DNA of 64,000 nucleotides, from contig CM034547.1 of NCBI GenBank assembly GCA_020055645.1, forward strand, positions 15,780,513 through 15,844,512, in the 5' to 3' direction. Within the stretch, counting starts at the first letter, position 1, and every line of letters starts with the position of its first letter. The translations under genes and the position numbers were made by a program. The stretch comes from Tomocerus qinae (Eukaryota; Arthropoda; Collembola; Entomobryomorpha; Tomoceridae). Of the stretch, positions 33,734-46,422 are shown piece after piece. A model generated the notes under the pieces. The model did no database searches. It was not told where the DNA came from and worked only from the letters and a program-made list of their open reading frames with translations.

Positions 33734-36700
33734 TCAGTCCCTTTCAAGTTCGAATTGTTCCAACATCTCTGAAAGTTTCCTTGCTAGGGCTTCCGAAGAT
33801 GCACAAATAACTCTCCGACTCATCAAGTCAAGAGGTCCACCTTTAAAAGATGTTTGTATTAGACAGTTCCAAGGTTATTGGGATTGAAAATAACATTTGT
33901 TTATTGTAAATATTGATTACTTTGCTCCCATTCGAACACAAATAGCAAATTAAAATCCTCACATATGCTGAGACTTAAAAACACACTCCACGTCGAAACA
34001 AAAGCAATGTGACAAAAATATCGAAATTTTTAGTATTTTTTTACAATTTACCTAAAAGCAAATTATATCTCAAAAGAGGCTTCTACAGGTGAGAATTTCG
34101 ACACGTAAACTAGGAATATTTATATTTTCTTGTACAAATAAGTATGCATACATTGTAACCTATATTCCTTGGTTCAACTGTAATCACTCAACATGTTTTA
34201 GTCTCGATATTATCCATCACCGAATTTAAGGCGATATTAAATGTTAATATTTAGGGTAACAAAAATACATTACTGTACAGTTAAGCATTAAAATCCATTA
34301 TTTGTGTTTGTGACTCGTTATCGACAAAATTTAATAGTACTGGAAATGGAAAGTGAGCAAGGCAATTTAAACAGTGATAATTTTTAGTGACGGTTAAGAT
34401 AAGTAATGCATTTTACCAGCGGTGTCCATAACACATCCGCCAGCTTCACGAACAAGCAAATCGCCAGCAGCCATGTCCTTTGAATAATCATCATAAGAAT
34501 ATTTAATGATATTCTCATCAACACAAGAGACACAACTCTACTTATACATTTTTGTGCCATTTTTTTACCCATGCATGAAGTCCGAATTCAAAATATGCAT
34601 CAACTCCACCCGAAGCAACAGAGGCCATATTCATTACAGCAGCACCTAGGGCTCTTAGACTGACAAAAATTAAATTTTAAAATAGCTCACTATTCAGATA
34701 CCAATCACATATTAAGACTACTGATGGCCATGGTGAAGCTTTAATTGCTGAAAAAACTCATTTCCATTTCCACATGACAATTTGTTGCAATGACATATTT
34801 ACAGGACATTTCGAAACAGGGGAAAAGGTAAATAGACAAACAAATGCAACTGAAATGGAAAAAAACTCCCAGATCTCCTTCCACATGAAAAGGATTTAGA
34901 AACATTTATTGCATGGTACTTATTAAAAGAAAACCCAACCACCACATGCACTTACTCTCCGACCAAATGGGAAAAAGTTATAAAAAATATTGAGAATTGA
35001 GAACCTCCATAATCTAGAAGACAACCACCAGCCTCTTCTACTATTAATTGACCAGCTGCAATATCCTTTTAAAGTACAGAAAAAATAGTTAGATAATAAG
35101 GAAGAAGAAAACCAAATTATACATTCACGTATAAACATTTCAGTTCCATTGAGTATTATTGTGCACTCATGCTTAAGAAATTACCCAACAATGAAGACCA
35201 AGATGACAAAATGCGTCGGCTGCGCCAGCTGCTACCATGCAAATAGCACAGGCAGCAGTACCGTAAACCCGGACACTGGAGGACCGAAATATTAACACGG
35301 GTTACAATAGTTTGCCAAAAATTATTGCTTAATATGTCATTCATAGACGAGTCTTCAAATTGAGATTGGAAAATCGTTTTTTCAGCGCATTTTGTTTTAC
35401 TTTTACCATCATTTTGATTTTATATTGAAATACATACCCATGACAGGCTCCTATCAACTTCGTAAAATTTTTGATAACAACAGCTACTTTTTCCGGATCT
35501 TGACTGGTACCCGCTTCTGTGCAAATCAGTGCCTTTGACAAATCTATAGTAAATATATCGATTCCATTAATTTATAAACATGCATAGGAACATATTTTTG
35601 TATGTGCATTAATATTTATTTCTGCCCTATACATAACAAATTCTTCTTTTATACTTACCATCCTGACCAGAAACGGATATCGGCTTGCCATTAAGAAAAG
35701 CTCCTTGACCAGCACGGGCAGTGAAAAGCTGTTCCAAAATTGGGTTGTAAATGATGCCAATAACAGCTTTCTTGTCTATCAATAGACCTATTGAAATTGC
35801 TATTAGTGGAAGCCCGTGAACGAAATTCATGGTCCCATCAACTGGATCGATTATCCATGTCGGTGCATCAGTGAGTTCGCATTTTACACCACTTGCCGTT
35901 GTTTCTTCGCCAATGAATCTACGTAAAAAAAAATAATATAGAATGCACATTTGTCAAAGAAATTGCAGAATTTGTCATTGCAAAATCTTTCGACTTAAGA
36001 AAACTACCCCAAACATTAACCAACACTATAGTATATTTATTCAACTATAGTAGCTATAGTTGGTATAAAAAATAGGCTTAATGTTCTAGGAACCGATTTA
36101 TATCATTCTTACACTGCATTACTATAGTTGTAGCGAATCTGAACACCTTTATTTTGATTTGTTAAATTCATGAGCTTAATTTTCATCTCATCATTGGTAC
36201 GATGCCCAAGAATTTGTTCTTCACTGCATTGATACATTACATTTATTACATTGCAAACCATACACAAACAGCCAATTTTCATGTCCAGAAACAGTTGAGT
36301 CAATACAGAGACAGCAATTAAGTCTCAGACTGAAAAACATTAACAACAATAACATGCCCCTACACTACACAGAATACCGATGATGTCACTGCCTTTGCTT
36401 TAACCGCATGTTGGCAAAGCTAATTTAGCAATAGGTACTGATAATTTGCAAGGGACAGACAGACAGGAAGATATAATGCATAGGAGTTTGCATATAGGTC
36501 GTGTAGTAGATCTGTAAATTAGATACCATCTGTATATTTGATATATACGTTGAGTTTTAAACGTTAGTTTTATTTCATCTGTTTTTAATCTTTGTAAAGA
36601 ATACAATTTATCGCTCCATTACTGACAGCCGACAATACACAAGAATGAATTCATGGGAAAGTAAAAAGCTTGAAAAATATTTCTACAATGAAATAAATAC

Positions 36701-37964
36701 ATGAGATTAGAGTATCGTATTTTGTAGCAATATTTTTCTACATGCAAAGCGCAAACTGTCTTGTATAGAATGATATCTAAATCGAAATGGTTTTACGATA
36801 GTTTCAATTTTACAATGGCAATTGTAAAATTCCATTCCATACTCATAAACCAAATAAAAAATGTCGACATCACGTTTTACTATGGTGTGCATTACTATTC
36901 ATTTAAGTTGTTTTCAATGAATTGGCACAATCTACTCATTTAGGCATAAAACATACACATTAATTTGACTTTCATATGTAATGCGATGTTATCGATATAC
37001 ACAAGCATATAATATCTGGAACTGAGCTGTTTATAAGTCCAATGCTAAATAAATGCTTATCTATGCATAATATGTTTGTTTACGCACATATAGGACTTTG
37101 TGAAGTACTTTCTGTGACAGTTAATACACATCACACATGTTCACATGTCATGTACATGCTAGAATGTTATTAGTAAATCTACACATAGGGGCTACTTGAG
37201 ATGCACTATTAAAAACAATCTTACCGATAAGCTGCAGTAAACAACTAAGCTAATGGCCAAAAGGAATTTTCCAATAAACTTTCCAGTGTTCGAAACCTGT
37301 TATTGCGTAAAGATAATTGAGTTATTTACTTGTGATCTGGAAAAGCCTCATGAAGTCCTCCGATAAGAAGTTTCTCAACTTCTTGATCCGTCTCCGTCAC
37401 TAGATCAATGTCACAGGATTTGGTCTGAATATTTTTCTTCTTGGAGATGGCCTCTCGTATTATCTATGAAATATTTGCAACAATGCACAGTTAAGTACGT
37501 ACCTGGTTTGAATGAATATGCCACGAAGAAATTGAAGTAGATATTGTAGCATCCGGTTGTGTTTTTGTGCATTGTACAAAAATGTCCATAATATATGATA
37601 TTACCTGCTGCATAGTGCATAGGCAGCTTGGTCAGGGCCAGTCTACGTTCTATGCAGCAGTTCACAAGAAAATACAGACATAGAAACTAAAGTGCACGCA
37701 CACAGTTCCCACTGCGGTACATGGCACACAACGTGATACACATTTGGCTTCATTTTTAATTTGTACATAATTTTTACACACCTATATATCAATACATACG
37801 TATACTTACAGTGTATGAATGTAAGTAATAGAGATAAATATAATAAATATGATAGTGTAAATTGTATTGCATATTATAAGATGCTTTTAGTTAGGACTGA
37901 CCTTGCCAGAGTCTTGAGTGAGGCGTAGGCAGACTTCATAATATTTGTCCAAGTCATGTTCCAT
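33734..37964 (-). CDS. IMPA1: Inositol monophosphatase, with a duplicated two-exon cassette
   Basis: Hydrolyses inositol monophosphates to myo-inositol in the cytosol (Mg2+-dependent, lithium-sensitive family), feeding phosphoinositide resynthesis. Exons in transcript order: A 37902-37964, B 37330-37463, C 35659-35918, D 35438-35543, then cassette 1 (35185-35275 + 35005-35065) or cassette 2 (34569-34659 + 34417-34477), then the last exon 33734-33840. Either choice gives 822 nt, 273 aa, close to the usual ~277. Visible metal and catalytic residues: Glu70 in GEE, Asp90 and Asp93 in DPVDGT, and Asp219 in W-D-x-A-A-G. The last exon encodes [14 protein letters not shown] and the C-terminal helix. 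The start ([12 protein letters not shown]) is the first Met in phase with exon B. The gene is divergent from the SKIV2L gene about 3 kb away. Family and splicing are clear; the choice of IMPA1 rather than IMPA2 as orthologue is a guess. Confidence 0.92.
34417..34659 (-). other. Phosphatase alternative cassette 2 (exons E2 34569-34659 and F2 34417-34477)
   Basis: E2 (91 nt) encodes [16 protein letters not shown] through [12 protein letters not shown]2 (61 nt) encodes [14 protein letters not shown] through CVMDTAG. The F2 donor GTAAAA joins the last exon at 33840 in phase, giving [13 protein letters not shown]. The Glu213-equivalent is retained, but the Thr of the GTA motif is Ala. If F2 were not spliced, a TAA would follow at 34394-34396. 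Confidence 0.85.
34906..34911 (-). promoter_or_regulatory. Possible intronic polyadenylation signal after cassette 1
   Basis: AATAAA on the minus strand, about 41 nt past the TAA reached when exon F1 is read through. It could end a short phosphatase isoform lacking the LMSRR tail. In A+T-rich DNA an AATAAA by chance is common, so support is modest. Confidence 0.3.
35005..35275 (-). other. Phosphatase alternative cassette 1 (exons E1 35185-35275 and F1 35005-35065)
   Basis: E1 (91 nt, enters in phase 2, ends phase 0) encodes [12 protein letters not shown] through [12 protein letters not shown]1 (61 nt, ends phase 1) encodes [14 protein letters not shown] through CLLDYGG. Lengths and phases equal those of cassette 2, so D-E1-F1-last exon is in frame and reads [13 protein letters not shown]. 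The residue equivalent to human IMPA1 Glu213 is His212 here, while the Gly-Thr-Ala phosphate/inositol contact is kept. The F1 donor is weak beyond GT (gttctc). Read through, F1 ends at a TAA (34952-34954) followed by AATAAA (34906-34911), so a truncated isoform is a second possibility. Confidence 0.8.
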
Positions 37965-41016: not shown

Positions 41017-44000
41017 ATGACGTCTGATAAATCTGGAGTACATGCCAACACTGGCAGCACGAGTGATCAAAATCTTCAAATTGGTCTTCCACCTGTTGTC
41101 CCTAAGATAGTAGACATTTTGCAAGAATATACAACGAAACCAGAACGACTTCCAATCCATCAACTCCAAATCAACCTAAGGCCTCTACCCTGTCCAAGAG
41201 ATGTATCCACACTTTTTCAATTTCATTCGACTCAACTGCCTATGGTGCAAGGGGTAAGTAAATTAGCGGATTAATTAGATCAATAATAAAAAGATAAATA
41301 CCTTTTGGTGTGTATAAAAAAGGAAATAAATACCCACAATATTGATATCTAATGATTACCATTTTATTCCCTAAATAGGTGAGACGGGACCCAAAAACAG
41401 GAAAATTGTTGGATTACGAAGAAGTCGAAGTTTCTTGCTTAGGGGAAACTGCAAAAAATTCTCTATCTCTTACAAGACAACCAGGCCTTCGCAATGAATC
41501 TTTGAAAGGAAGTTCGGCCAATTACCCATTTTGGCCAGGCGGCTTTGATGAAGAAAAAGAAATACAGTCCCTTGCTTCCAAAGTCCGTAATTATGGATTA
41601 GATACCGATGAAAATGAACTATTTCGCCAGTTGTTTGAAAAAGGCATGTCTAGTTACGAGTTTTACCAATTTTGATAAATTCTGTAAATGTCATTTTTTA
41701 CACCAACTATTATTTTGAATCAGATTTATGCTGGATTCCACCTGGGTTTGAGACAGGCATGGAGATTACCACGCAGTCCCCCGAATCGACAAAATCTACT
41801 ATAAACTTGGTAAATTGTTCTTATAATTTTCGATGATATTCATTTGACCTCTTAAGTTTTTTTGTAAATCTTATTATATTTATGCATATTTATCCATAAT
41901 GTCCAATTTGTCTCTTTCTTAAGGATGTGGAACAAACATACGACTTTTGGCAAGGGCAAAGTAAAGTTGATTTAGACATGCAGTATGAACCTGCGATGAG
42001 CAAACTGGCTAAAAAGGAAAGCAGTGCCAGACGAATTCTAAACGAATTGCCTGATGATAAGTTTCTTTTGAAGAATGAGGTATCAATATCAAATGATTTA
42101 AAATAAGATAATGATTAAGGATAAAAGTGAAAATTATGTACAGTTTTAACAATTGTTCAGGAACCCAAACCAATACCTGTTCTAAAAATTAGCAAGTCGT
42201 TAATGCAACACATTCCGATGTCCTTGCAATGGGCAGAGCAGATTGATGTAACAAAACCGATGGTTGACTTTGAGGAGAAAGTACCGGACATGGCATTTAA
42301 GTACCCATTCGAGTTGGACACTTTTCAGAAACAGGTGACTCCGTTTATACATTGTATATCGTAATCAAATTTTAACTTTAGTTTAATTTAAGGCCATCGC
42401 CCGTTTGGAGGAACATGAAAATGTATTCGTTGCAGCCCATACTTCAGCTGGAAAAACTGTGGTTGCTGAATATGCCATTGCCCTATCCGTTCGTCACATG
42501 ACTAGGTTTGATTTGATTTATGCTTCCTTGGGATTCCAAAGTTGAAAATTATGTTTAAAAGTTTTATTTCCAATCAAGGACCGTATACACATCTCCAATA
42601 AAAGCTCTATCAAATCAGAAGTTTCGTGATTTCAAAGGCAGTTTTGAAAGTGTCGGCCTTGTCACTGGAGATGTTCAAATCAACCCAACTGCCTCTTGCC
42701 TTATAATGACTACTGAAATATTACGCTCAATGCTGTACAATGGATCCGATGTAATTCGGGATTTGGAGTGGGTTGTGTTTGATGAAATACATTATCTTAA
42801 CAATGAAGAGGTATTGAAAGAATAAGCTTATTTATTACACTAATAATATTGTAACGAAATGGATATCTATAATATTACATCTGTCATCTATCTTTAATGA
42901 ATTAACTGACATGCCATTGTTACATTAAAGTATTAATTGATCTCTTGATTTAGAGGGGCCATGTCTGGGAAGAAGTACTTATTATGCTGCCTCAGCATGT
43001 GAGTATTATCATGCTTAGCGCTACTGTTCCTAATGCTCTACAGTTTGCTAACTGGGTTGGAGAAATAAAAAAGAAAAAAATTTACGTTATCAGTACTCCG
43101 AAACGGCCAGTTCCTCTAGAACATTTTCTCTACACAGGATCAGGTGGAAAATCAAGAGATGAATGCTTTTTAATTCTCAACTACGAAGGGAACTTTTTGA
43201 AAGAAGGGTAAATGATAAATTGTTTTGTGTATTTGTCTTTAAATGCTAAATATGCTGTTTTTACTAAAAAATATTTTAAATATTGTAGTCACTCACAGGC
43301 CAAGGAGGCTAAACTCGCTCGAATGTCCAACCATCAAAAAAGCTTTGGCGCAAAACAAGGAAGATCTGCAGGTTTTAATGAAGCATCCGAAAAAACTACT
43401 TACGTTGGTCTCGTCAATTACTTAAAAGAGACTGTAAATGCAATTCTTTAAAATATTAAAACTTTGAAACCTAATTTATATAATATATGTTTAAATCATT
43501 AATGTTGGTATGGTTTTGAATGCATAGGACAAACTACCTGTCGTTATATTTACCTTTTCTCGGAACAGATGTGATATGTATGCTAGAATCATGTGCTGTG
43601 TGGATTTGACTACCGGAGCCCAACGAGCTGAAATAAATGGCTTCTTTCTCAATAGTATTTCTAAGCTGAAAGGATCAGACAGAGAACTTCCACAGGTTTC
43701 CAGCATTGAAATTAACAACTGTAAAATGTAACAATTTTCCAGTTTTGTTTGTTCATTGAGTGATATTTGGAATCGTTTTATCTTAGGTAAAAATTGTACA
43801 CGAAATGCTACAATGTGGGATCGGTGTTCATCACAGTGGAATATTACCAATATTGAAGGAAGTTGTCGAGATGTTATTTCAAAGGGGATTAGTCAAGGTG
43901 CCAATAGATTATCCAATTCAAACTAAATTTTTTGAAGAAATGGAAATGGGTTTATAATAAATTGTTATCTGATAGCTTTTATTTGCGACTGAAACTTTTG

Positions 44001-46422
44001 CAATGGGAGTTAACATGCCGGCTCGTACTGTTGTATTTGACTCATGCAGAAAGCATGATGGAGTCGGATTTCGGAATTTACTTCCTGCTGAGTACATTCA
44101 AATGGCGGGACGAGCTGGACGACGTGGTCTAGACACTACGGGAACTGTTATAATTTTATGCAAACAACATGTGCCTGATTCATTGGAACTAAACCATATG
44201 ATGCTCGGAAAAGCAGCCAAGTTGGAGTCACAGTTTAGATTGACCTACAGCATGATATTGAATTTGTTGAGAGTAGAAAGCTTATCCGTGGAAGATGTCA
44301 TGAAAAGAAGTTTTCTTGAAGCTGGGGCCAGAACTCTAAAAATTGAAGATATTCGAGACAAGAAGCAAAAAGTTGAGGAACAGCTCTTTTTAATAGGCGG
44401 ACAAAAGTTGGATGAAAATTTAGTCAACTTTTATCAACATATGAAAGATTTCTTGGCATTAAAGGACAAATTGTCGGTACGTTACGTAAATCCAATAATC
44501 TAACAAAAAGTGATTTCTGAAATTAATTAACATATTTACTTATCTATTGTAAAATTGGCAGGATTTTATCTTAAATCATCCTAAACTGGTCAAAGATATG
44601 GCGGCTGGTCGCGTAATTGTGATTGAAGATCTTCCTCGTCTGACAACCAGATTTGCGATTATTTTGACTGTCCAAATCTTAAAAGAAAATACACAGTTCA
44701 AGAAGAAATATGAAGTTTTAATTTTTACTGATCCATCAGATTCTTTATCGTTGCAAGAAAAGAATTTATCAGTTTCTGATTCTCCTACTGTTAAATTAGT
44801 TACTGGTCGAGAATCTCTGGACAGAGTATTTCAACAGTTTCTGTATTATTCTCATCCAAACTTGGTGTCAGTTACTCCTACTTATAATGCATTTGGCTTT
44901 CTGCCACATGCAATCATCACAATTTCAGGGGAAAATATTGTTGAGGTTACTAAGAAAGCTATTCGTGTTGACGTTGCTGCCATTAAAAAAGATGTCAGTC
45001 AGAGAACAATAGAGCGCTTCAAGTAAATTAAATCAAATTATTATTTCAAAGTTTCGAATCTTTAAACTACCGTACTTATTGGTTTCATTTATATTACTTT
45101 TTAGAGACAATAAACCTGTTCATAATTTAATGACGACTTTGGAGGACCTAAAAGATTATCATGATGCAGAAATCATACTTTCAAATCCGTTTTATGACTT
45201 GCAATTTAAAGATTCGAATGTAATGACAGAGATGGGTAGATTTGTAGCTATGAAGGGTCAATTGAAGACAAGAAGTTTACATACAGACGAAAATTTTATT
45301 CAAGAAGTAAGATTTGAAACTTTAGTATTTACAGAATAGAATACTCTTTTATATTCAGTTAATTTGCAGAACGTAGTAAATTAATGTTGATGTCATAAAT
45401 ATTTTCTTGTTTTTATCTGTAGTTCAAAGAAGTTTTTTGTTTTATGAAATTGCAAGACGAGAAAGAGCACATGGAACATCTATTGTCTCCTAAAAGTTTG
45501 CTACTACACGAGGAATACGAATCCCGAAAGATGGTTCTTAAAAAATTGGGATACATTGATGAAGAAAATTTGGGTCTGTAGAGTAGCATTTTAAAATGTA
45601 TTTCTAACAAAAGTTGCATCAAGAAAGTTGTTAATTTTTTCCTAATATTACTGATTTTTGAATTGTAGTACAATTGAAAGGACGTGTTGCATGTGAGATG
45701 GGTAACCAAAATGAACTTATGGTCACTGAGATGGTCTTAAATAACCTTTTATCAGACTGTCCTCCCGAAGAAATTGCCGCTTTGCTTTCATGCATGGTTT
45801 TCGAAGCTAAAAATGTTGAGGAACCGCAGCTGCCTCCTGAACTACCTCTAACCAAGGTACCTCAGATTTATTTAGTGCTGGTTCAATAATAAGTAATTAT
45901 ATAATTACATACGATCCTTCAGGTTTATGATAGTTGAAGGTTTAATTGATTTTATTTTGGGTTTAAATATTTTCATTTATTTTTCAGAAAGTAGAAGAAA
46001 TTAAAGCACTAGCAAAGACTATTGGACAAGTGCAAAGGGAGTGCGGGTTGATGGAGCCCGTTGATCAGTATGTTGAGCAGTTTCGCTTTGGACTTGTTGA
46101 AGTCGTATATGAGTGGGCGAAAGGAAAAGTAAATCTGTTAATTTTTAAACGTTATCAATATAGTTGATGATAAACTGAAATTCATAGTCTCTAACCTAAG
46201 TACTTTTAAATGCTTCTTTAGCCCTTTTGCGAAATAATGCGACTTACTGAATGCCAAGAAGGATTGATTGTGCGAACAATACAGCGCCTGGATGAAATGT
46301 TACGTGATGTCAAAGATGCTGCTCGTATCATTGGGGATCCATCACTCAAAAAGAAGATGGAAGAAGCGTCACTTTGCATTAAACGAGATATTGTCTTCGC
46401 GGCAAGTCTGTATACGCAATAG
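41017..46422 (+). CDS. SKIV2L: Ski2-type DExH RNA helicase (Ski complex subunit)
   Basis: Cytoplasmic 3'-5' RNA helicase that feeds mRNA to the exosome together with Ski3 and Ski8. Coding exons: 41017-41253, 41379-41652, 41724-41809, 41924-42079, 42161-42334, 42393-42505, 42579-42810, 42954-43207, 43289-43433, 43528-43695, 43787-43897, 43976-44476, 44562-45022, 45105-45306, 45423-45573, 45669-45856, 45988-46128, 46222-46422: 3,795 nt, 1,264 aa, similar to the human protein (about 1,246). Visible motifs: the Ski2 N-terminal [11 protein letters not shown]; Walker [10 protein letters not shown] (about 323-331); DEIH (415-418); SAT (446-448); [30 protein letters not shown] (692-701); the arch/insertion region; and a C-terminus FAASLYTQ as in orthologues. 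MTR4 lacks this N-terminus, so Ski2 is preferred. The exon 2 donor (A|GTTACG at 41652) is the least certain junction. An acceptor at 41003 implies an upstream non-coding exon. Confidence 0.95.

Follow-up and report, generated by a model that had tools for sequence, protein, structure and literature searches.

A tandemly doubled two-exon active-site cassette in an inositol monophosphatase gene of Tomocerus qinae

Structure of the gene and its doubled cassette

The window analyzed here, a 64,000-nucleotide stretch of Tomocerus qinae DNA, is part of a 71.8-Mb contig. The genome totals 334 Mb, and its five large contigs measure 140.5, 71.8, 51.6, 33.8, and 24.3 Mb. The minus strand of the window carries an IMPA-type gene, termed IMPA-A, with the exon order A-B-C-D-E-F-last and a product of 273 amino acids. 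Enzymes of the IMPA family dephosphorylate inositol monophosphate and are inhibited by lithium. The gene belongs to this family by full-length similarity and by the metal motifs EE, DPxDG, and WD, which are found in both predicted spliced models. The features of the gene are listed in Table 1.

Table 1. Features of the IMPA-A gene, in positions of the window.
Feature	Position	Strand	Length (nt)	Description	Basis
Exon A (putative)	37902..37964	-	63	21 residues	Motif search; reading frame continuous with exon B
Exon B	37330..37463	-	134		tblastn and splice borders
Exon C	35659..35918	-	260	DPVDGT metal site	tblastn; Pfam PF00459 match
Exon D	35438..35543	-	106	3' end CAT GG	tblastn
Exon E1	35185..35275	-	91	Human residues 190-219, His at 213	Splice borders, alignment
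Exon F1	35005..35065	-	61	WD-IAAG site, weak donor GAG/GTTCTC	Splice borders, alignment
F1 extension (putative; F1L, total 110 nt)	34956..35004	-	49	Extends to GTAAGT at 34955	Prediction
In-frame TAA on F1 read-through	34952..34954	-		Followed by AATAAA at 34910-34905	
Exon E2	34569..34659	-	91	Glu at 213	Splice borders, alignment
Exon F2	34417..34477	-	61		Splice borders, alignment
Last coding exon	33734..33840	-		Ends in LERD, TGA at 33736-33734	tblastn, frame

The E+F exon pair is present twice. The coordinates, the lengths of 91 and 61 nucleotides, the AG/GT borders, and the phases (2 to 0 for E and 0 to 1 for F, identical in both pairs) are all exact, in agreement with the sequence-only reading that first pointed out the arrangement. 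It is a duplication of a two-exon active-site block. Each copy, or cassette, corresponds to residues 190 to 240 of human IMPA1. A tblastn search of the whole window with cassette queries returned just the two pairs, the common last exon, and matches at E values of at least 2.7.

As the same reading had proposed, either E1+F1 or E2+F2 joins exon D and the last exon, whose 5' end is GT GGA CCT. The predicted product is in both cases an in-frame, full-length protein of 273 amino acids. Both cassettes may be spliced to the last exon. An E1-F2-last hybrid is likewise in frame and 273 amino acids long.

Both products were compared by phmmer with eight distinct IMPA1/IMPA2 PDB sequences, and all E values were 5.4e-84 or better. 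The best value against the solved IMPA1/2 sequences is 3.7e-89 for the E1F1 product and 1.2e-86 for the E2F2 product. The alignment with IMPA1 begins at residue 11 or 12 and continues to the C-terminal end, with no gaps in the cassette in the five printed alignments for each product. The gene is like IMPA1/IMPA2 (PF00459) in its nearly full-length match, its metal-site motifs, Asp220, and the W-D and EAGG motifs. It is unlike them in that the cassette region occurs twice and that E1 has His at the position of Glu213.

A second IMPA-type gene, IMPA-B, was identified on the minus strand elsewhere in the genome (L009, 4940-3425; C2, about 59.98 Mb). It shares 103 of 182 residues (57%) with IMPA-A over exons A-D and has the same D/E junction phase, judged by eye. 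In contrast to IMPA-A, its E and F are fused into one exon that lacks the intron between W and D, and one copy was seen.

The whole-genome protein search gave six matches, composed of four pieces of IMPA-A, IMPA-B, and one match at E 0.31. This search missed E2, so a diverged copy elsewhere could escape it too. A Pfam search of the genome gave 10 matches, in IMPA-A, IMPA-B, and other places. Two of these other places (L003 and L011) have no match to the IMPA-A gene, and five (L005-L007, L010, and L012) have weak matches (E of at least 0.029) to the A-C part and none to the cassettes. No retrocopies revealing splice junctions were seen in the Pfam search or in the protein search that missed E2. 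A haplotig or assembly duplicate as the source of the second cassette was ruled out, as the cassettes are 49% identical and the whole-genome protein search, which missed E2, gave no near-identical copy.

Three other features lie on the plus strand of the window. A SKI2 helicase gene adjoins at 41379-44500 (Ski2_N at 4.4e-20, Helicase_C, and a PDB match at 4.1e-53). A weak MGAT4_cons match is present at 45013-45336 (0.0069, 15.8 bits, far below the cut-off of 51.5). An ORF at 854-1417 has an F-box match, to PF00646 with 22.2 bits (cut-off 20.5) and PF12937 with 24.2 bits (cut-off 24.3). Rfam gave nothing at the gathering threshold within the window.

Conservation of the cassettes and residue 213

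The cassettes share 25 of 51 residues (49%). E1F1 is 53% identical to human IMPA1, 59% to bovine IMPA1, and 49% to IMPA-B, and the corresponding values for E2F2 are 51%, 47%, and 53%. Between the cassettes, dN (NG86) is 0.46 and dS is saturated and not estimable. The differences at the first, second, and third codon positions number 18, 15, and 34 of 50. In a neutral simulation with one substitution per site (2000 runs, indels ignored), the 50 codons stayed open in 5-6% of runs, and residue identity was about 16%, compared with the 49% between the cassettes.

The bacterial reference began with the 80 top-ranking of at least 586 relatives, and 68 of these 80 rows were usable. Against the profile of these 68 bacterial IMPase rows, E1F1 scores 62.8 bits, E2F2 70.6, IMPA-B 78.3, and human IMPA1 59.1. 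Shuffled controls (one shuffle for each of the four sequences) reach at most 1.4 bits, so chance is no serious explanation for the cassettes. Eleven positions are identical in at least 65 of the 68 rows drawn from those best 80 (R191, G194, A204, G206, W219, D220, A223, G224, E230, G232, and G233), and all are kept in both cassettes. Taken together, the saturated synonymous sites, the kept, nearly invariant residues, and the IMPase-like scores indicate that selection has long retained both cassettes, which have been under purifying selection.

A tree of 24 rows and 51 columns, which took in 20 of the 68 bacterial rows by random choice, places both cassettes in one animal group with support of 97/95. 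A bacterial origin of one cassette was ruled out on this basis. E1F1 pairs with human IMPA1 at 93/85, below the starred level, and the tree does not place the duplication relative to animal splits.

The conservation extends to F1, which has 13 of 21 residues in common with F2 and 11 of 21 with human IMPA1. This bears on a reading in which the E exons alone alternate, E1 or E2 being joined to F2 and F1 being skipped. The in-frame E1-F2-last product would allow such splicing, but the conservation of F1 is unexplained by its skipping, and the reading is highly improbable.

The substrate contacts of the enzyme have been given as D93, G94, T95, A196, E213, and D220 (PMC12324327, a preprint). Three of the six (A196, E213, and D220) fall inside the cassette. 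Asp220 is also a ligand of Mg-II (PMC4954947). At position 213, E2 has Glu as in IMPA1, and E1 has His. How much E213 matters for selectivity is judged in a mixed way, in that one occupancy analysis dropped it and another favored it (PMC12324327). Position 213 is Glu in 56 and His in six of the 68 bacterial rows, which come from the top 80 among at least 586 relatives, so His is uncommon here yet found in intact relatives. The six His-213 relatives (L059, L063, L071, L087, L101, and L103) all have WDYAAG and come from Chitinimonas, Neisseriaceae, Andreprevotia, Laribacter, and, twice, Iodobacter.

The F1 donor and the possible joins

The sequence-only reading had also held that the two cassettes exclude each other by reading frame. 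At the borders in Table 1, the F1-E2 junction does read GGA GTC TAA, an immediate stop. The wider claim stands where the GAG/GTTCTC donor is assumed. It fails where GTAAGT at 34955 is the donor, which leaves 340 amino acids open, and it fails for the E1-F2 join, which is in frame. As the frame argument depends on a weak F1 donor, mutual exclusivity is not established.

The donors were scored with a model trained on 12 junctions of IMPA-A and IMPA-B. The F1 donor scores -3.4 bits and ranks 154th of the 274 GTs in the gene. The other seven donors of the gene, which were included in the training, are all in the top 12. Leave-one-out scores of the 12 training donors range from 1.8 to 9.8 bits. The F1 donor departs from the 12 other junctions at +3 (T in place of A/C) and at +4 (C in place of A/T). 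Its U1 pairing energy is -4.2, a value equaled in strength by 16% of 276 GTs. The E1, E2, and F2 donors are good, and the acceptors were judged by eye.

A donor this far below the leave-one-out range might be recently dead, in which case E1-F1 would be a fading former cassette and E2-F2 alone would be spliced. The open frames and the nearly invariant residues retained in E1 and F1 argue against such decay, as does the U1 energy, by which three of the 12 other donors are weaker than that of F1. This reading is considered very unlikely. The weak donor is also compatible with regulated use of F1.

The GTAAGT at 34955 is located 49 nucleotides past the F1 end and ranks 9th of the 274 GTs. Its U1 energy of -7.2 is equaled or exceeded by 2.9% of the 276 GTs. 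With this donor, F1 would become F1L (110 nucleotides), E1+F1L would total 201 nucleotides, and E1-F1L-E2-F2 would form one open frame with a predicted 340 amino acids. If F1 truly ends at 34956, inclusion of the E1+F1L block would give a 340-residue protein with the half-domain twice, and its skipping would give the 273-residue enzyme. Both the rank of the donor and the stop-free join to E2 speak for this. Among 5000 shuffles of the F1-E2 intron, an in-frame strong donor appeared in 1.06%, and a strong donor in any phase in 21%. The GTAAGT was spotted post hoc, however, and it is one of five GTs in the top 12 of the model that have no donor role in the gene model. The 17 extra residues would come from T-rich, intron-like sequence. 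Moreover, if both halves were always part of one protein, only one of them could probably complete the fold, but the nearly invariant residues are retained in both halves, which favors alternation of the cassettes over their joint inclusion. Joint inclusion is rated as quite unlikely.

Read-through of F1 stays open for 50 nucleotides and then meets the TAA at 34954. An AATAAA begins 44 nucleotides past the first base of this stop, at 34910. These signals, with the weak F1 donor, would suit an alternative 3' end, in which E1-F1 is polyadenylated after the AATAAA and encodes a protein that is shorter and has another C-terminal sequence, and E2-F2-last encodes the normal enzyme. An AATAAA within 100 nucleotides of the first stop occurs in 6.3% of 5000 shuffles. 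Past the TGA of the last exon, AATAAA first occurs after 1.77 kb, ATTAAA after 1.09 kb, and AATACA after 97 nucleotides. There is a precedent in that homologous 3'-terminal clusters mimic exclusive exons; the 94 predicted exclusive exons of the Drosophila X comprise 65 internal, 21 promoter, and eight poly(A)-end exons (PMC3228551). Set against this, AATAAA is frequent here, at 1.6 per kb per strand. The short product would also lack the first ten residues listed for the last exon and all beyond, which are common to both 273-residue models and to IMPA1 in the printed alignments. An alternative 3' end is unlikely.

The introns were also examined for competing RNA pairing of the docking and selector kind, and nothing convincing was found among 10 intron pairs, each compared with 40 shuffles. 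The D-E1 and E1-F1 introns (35276-35437 and 35066-35184) contain a complementary stretch that beats all 40 shuffles and lies near the E1 acceptor. Pairing between the E1-F1 and F1-E2 introns is above 37 of 40 shuffles. Both values are uncorrected for the ten pairs tested. The F1-E2 intron, at 345 nucleotides, is too long to enforce exclusion alone.

Possible alternation of the cassettes and known exon groups

The explanation preferred here, tentatively and at a little short of an even chance, is that the cassettes alternate, each supplying the C-terminal half of the enzyme by itself in some of the mRNAs, and that both have been retained for this reason. The donor evidence precludes a firm claim. 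The alternative 3' end, joint inclusion, a relic E1-F1, and alternation of the E exons alone jointly account for about half of the probability, and all of these odds are a matter of judgment.

A two-exon block encoding part of the substrate pocket and the Asp220 metal ligand was duplicated in tandem long ago. Under alternation, exon D would join E1 or E2. E1 would be followed by F1 (or F2) and E2 by F2, and the F exon would then join the common last exon. If F1 were spliced to E2 from the homologous donor, the transcript would meet the immediate stop and be discarded. The result would be two enzymes with a common metal site and a pocket that differs, with His in E1 and Glu in E2 at position 213. 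Cassette use may depend on tissue or stage, and the products may differ in substrates or lithium response. The fuller proposal, that the block swap yields two phosphatases with the same metal center and different pockets, so that splicing would switch substrate or lithium response, is rather doubtful.

The exons of the two cassettes are homologous, lie next to each other, match in length and phase, and are flanked by further exons. They resemble mutually exclusive exons in these respects, by the criteria of PMC3228551. They differ in that the unit is an exon pair, one donor is very weak, and exclusivity is a prediction. On the Drosophila X, just 90 of the 16180 exons classed as non-exclusive match a neighbor in length, frame, and homology (PMC3228551). 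That so few do so would, by analogy, support alternation. Existing annotation listed just 26 of the 65 internal predicted exons as exclusive (PMC3228551), which counts against it. The absence of Glu213 from E1 also counts against it, given that 56 of the 68 bacterial rows, taken from the top 80 among at least 586 relatives, have Glu there.

Exon groups that alternate as a block are a known kind. They occur in l(1)G0193, CG1637, and CG42249 of Drosophila and in human CUX1, which has two mutually exclusive exon sets (PMC3228551, PMC5740500). None of the four encodes an inositol monophosphatase. The three Drosophila genes, in which two to four exons form an exclusive group, were set aside by the authors as probably trans-spliced (PMC3228551). 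In human, exons not divisible by three are found in 377 (60%) of clusters, and the word inositol is absent from the main text of the same paper (PMC5740500). Literature searches, mostly of open-access papers and including parts of PMC9741552 and PMC9013439, gave no earlier description for inositol monophosphatase among the matches listed, in line with the novelty first suggested. As far as these searches show, the enzyme is new to this kind.

If both cassettes are used, an active-site part of a lithium target enzyme would be under splicing control, and the gene would represent a natural, long-running domain-swap experiment on enzyme specificity. The locus also illustrates that equal lengths and phases are insufficient proof of exclusive use, and that every donor needs checking.

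Two further observations concern the genome at large. At both ends of each of the five large contigs (ten stretches of 10 kb, L033-L042), no doubled TTAGGG was found, and doubled TTAGG occurs at most one to two times per strand. A long mitochondrial insertion is located on C1 at about 36.67 Mb (L051 6638-10000 and L052 1-3749). It contains ND2, COX1, ATP6, COX3, and, on the other strand, pieces of ND5, and is open under table 5 (the invertebrate code); its genes besides COX1 were named by eye. The ORF adjoining the insertion resembles a copia-type gag, with a CCHC motif recognized by eye.
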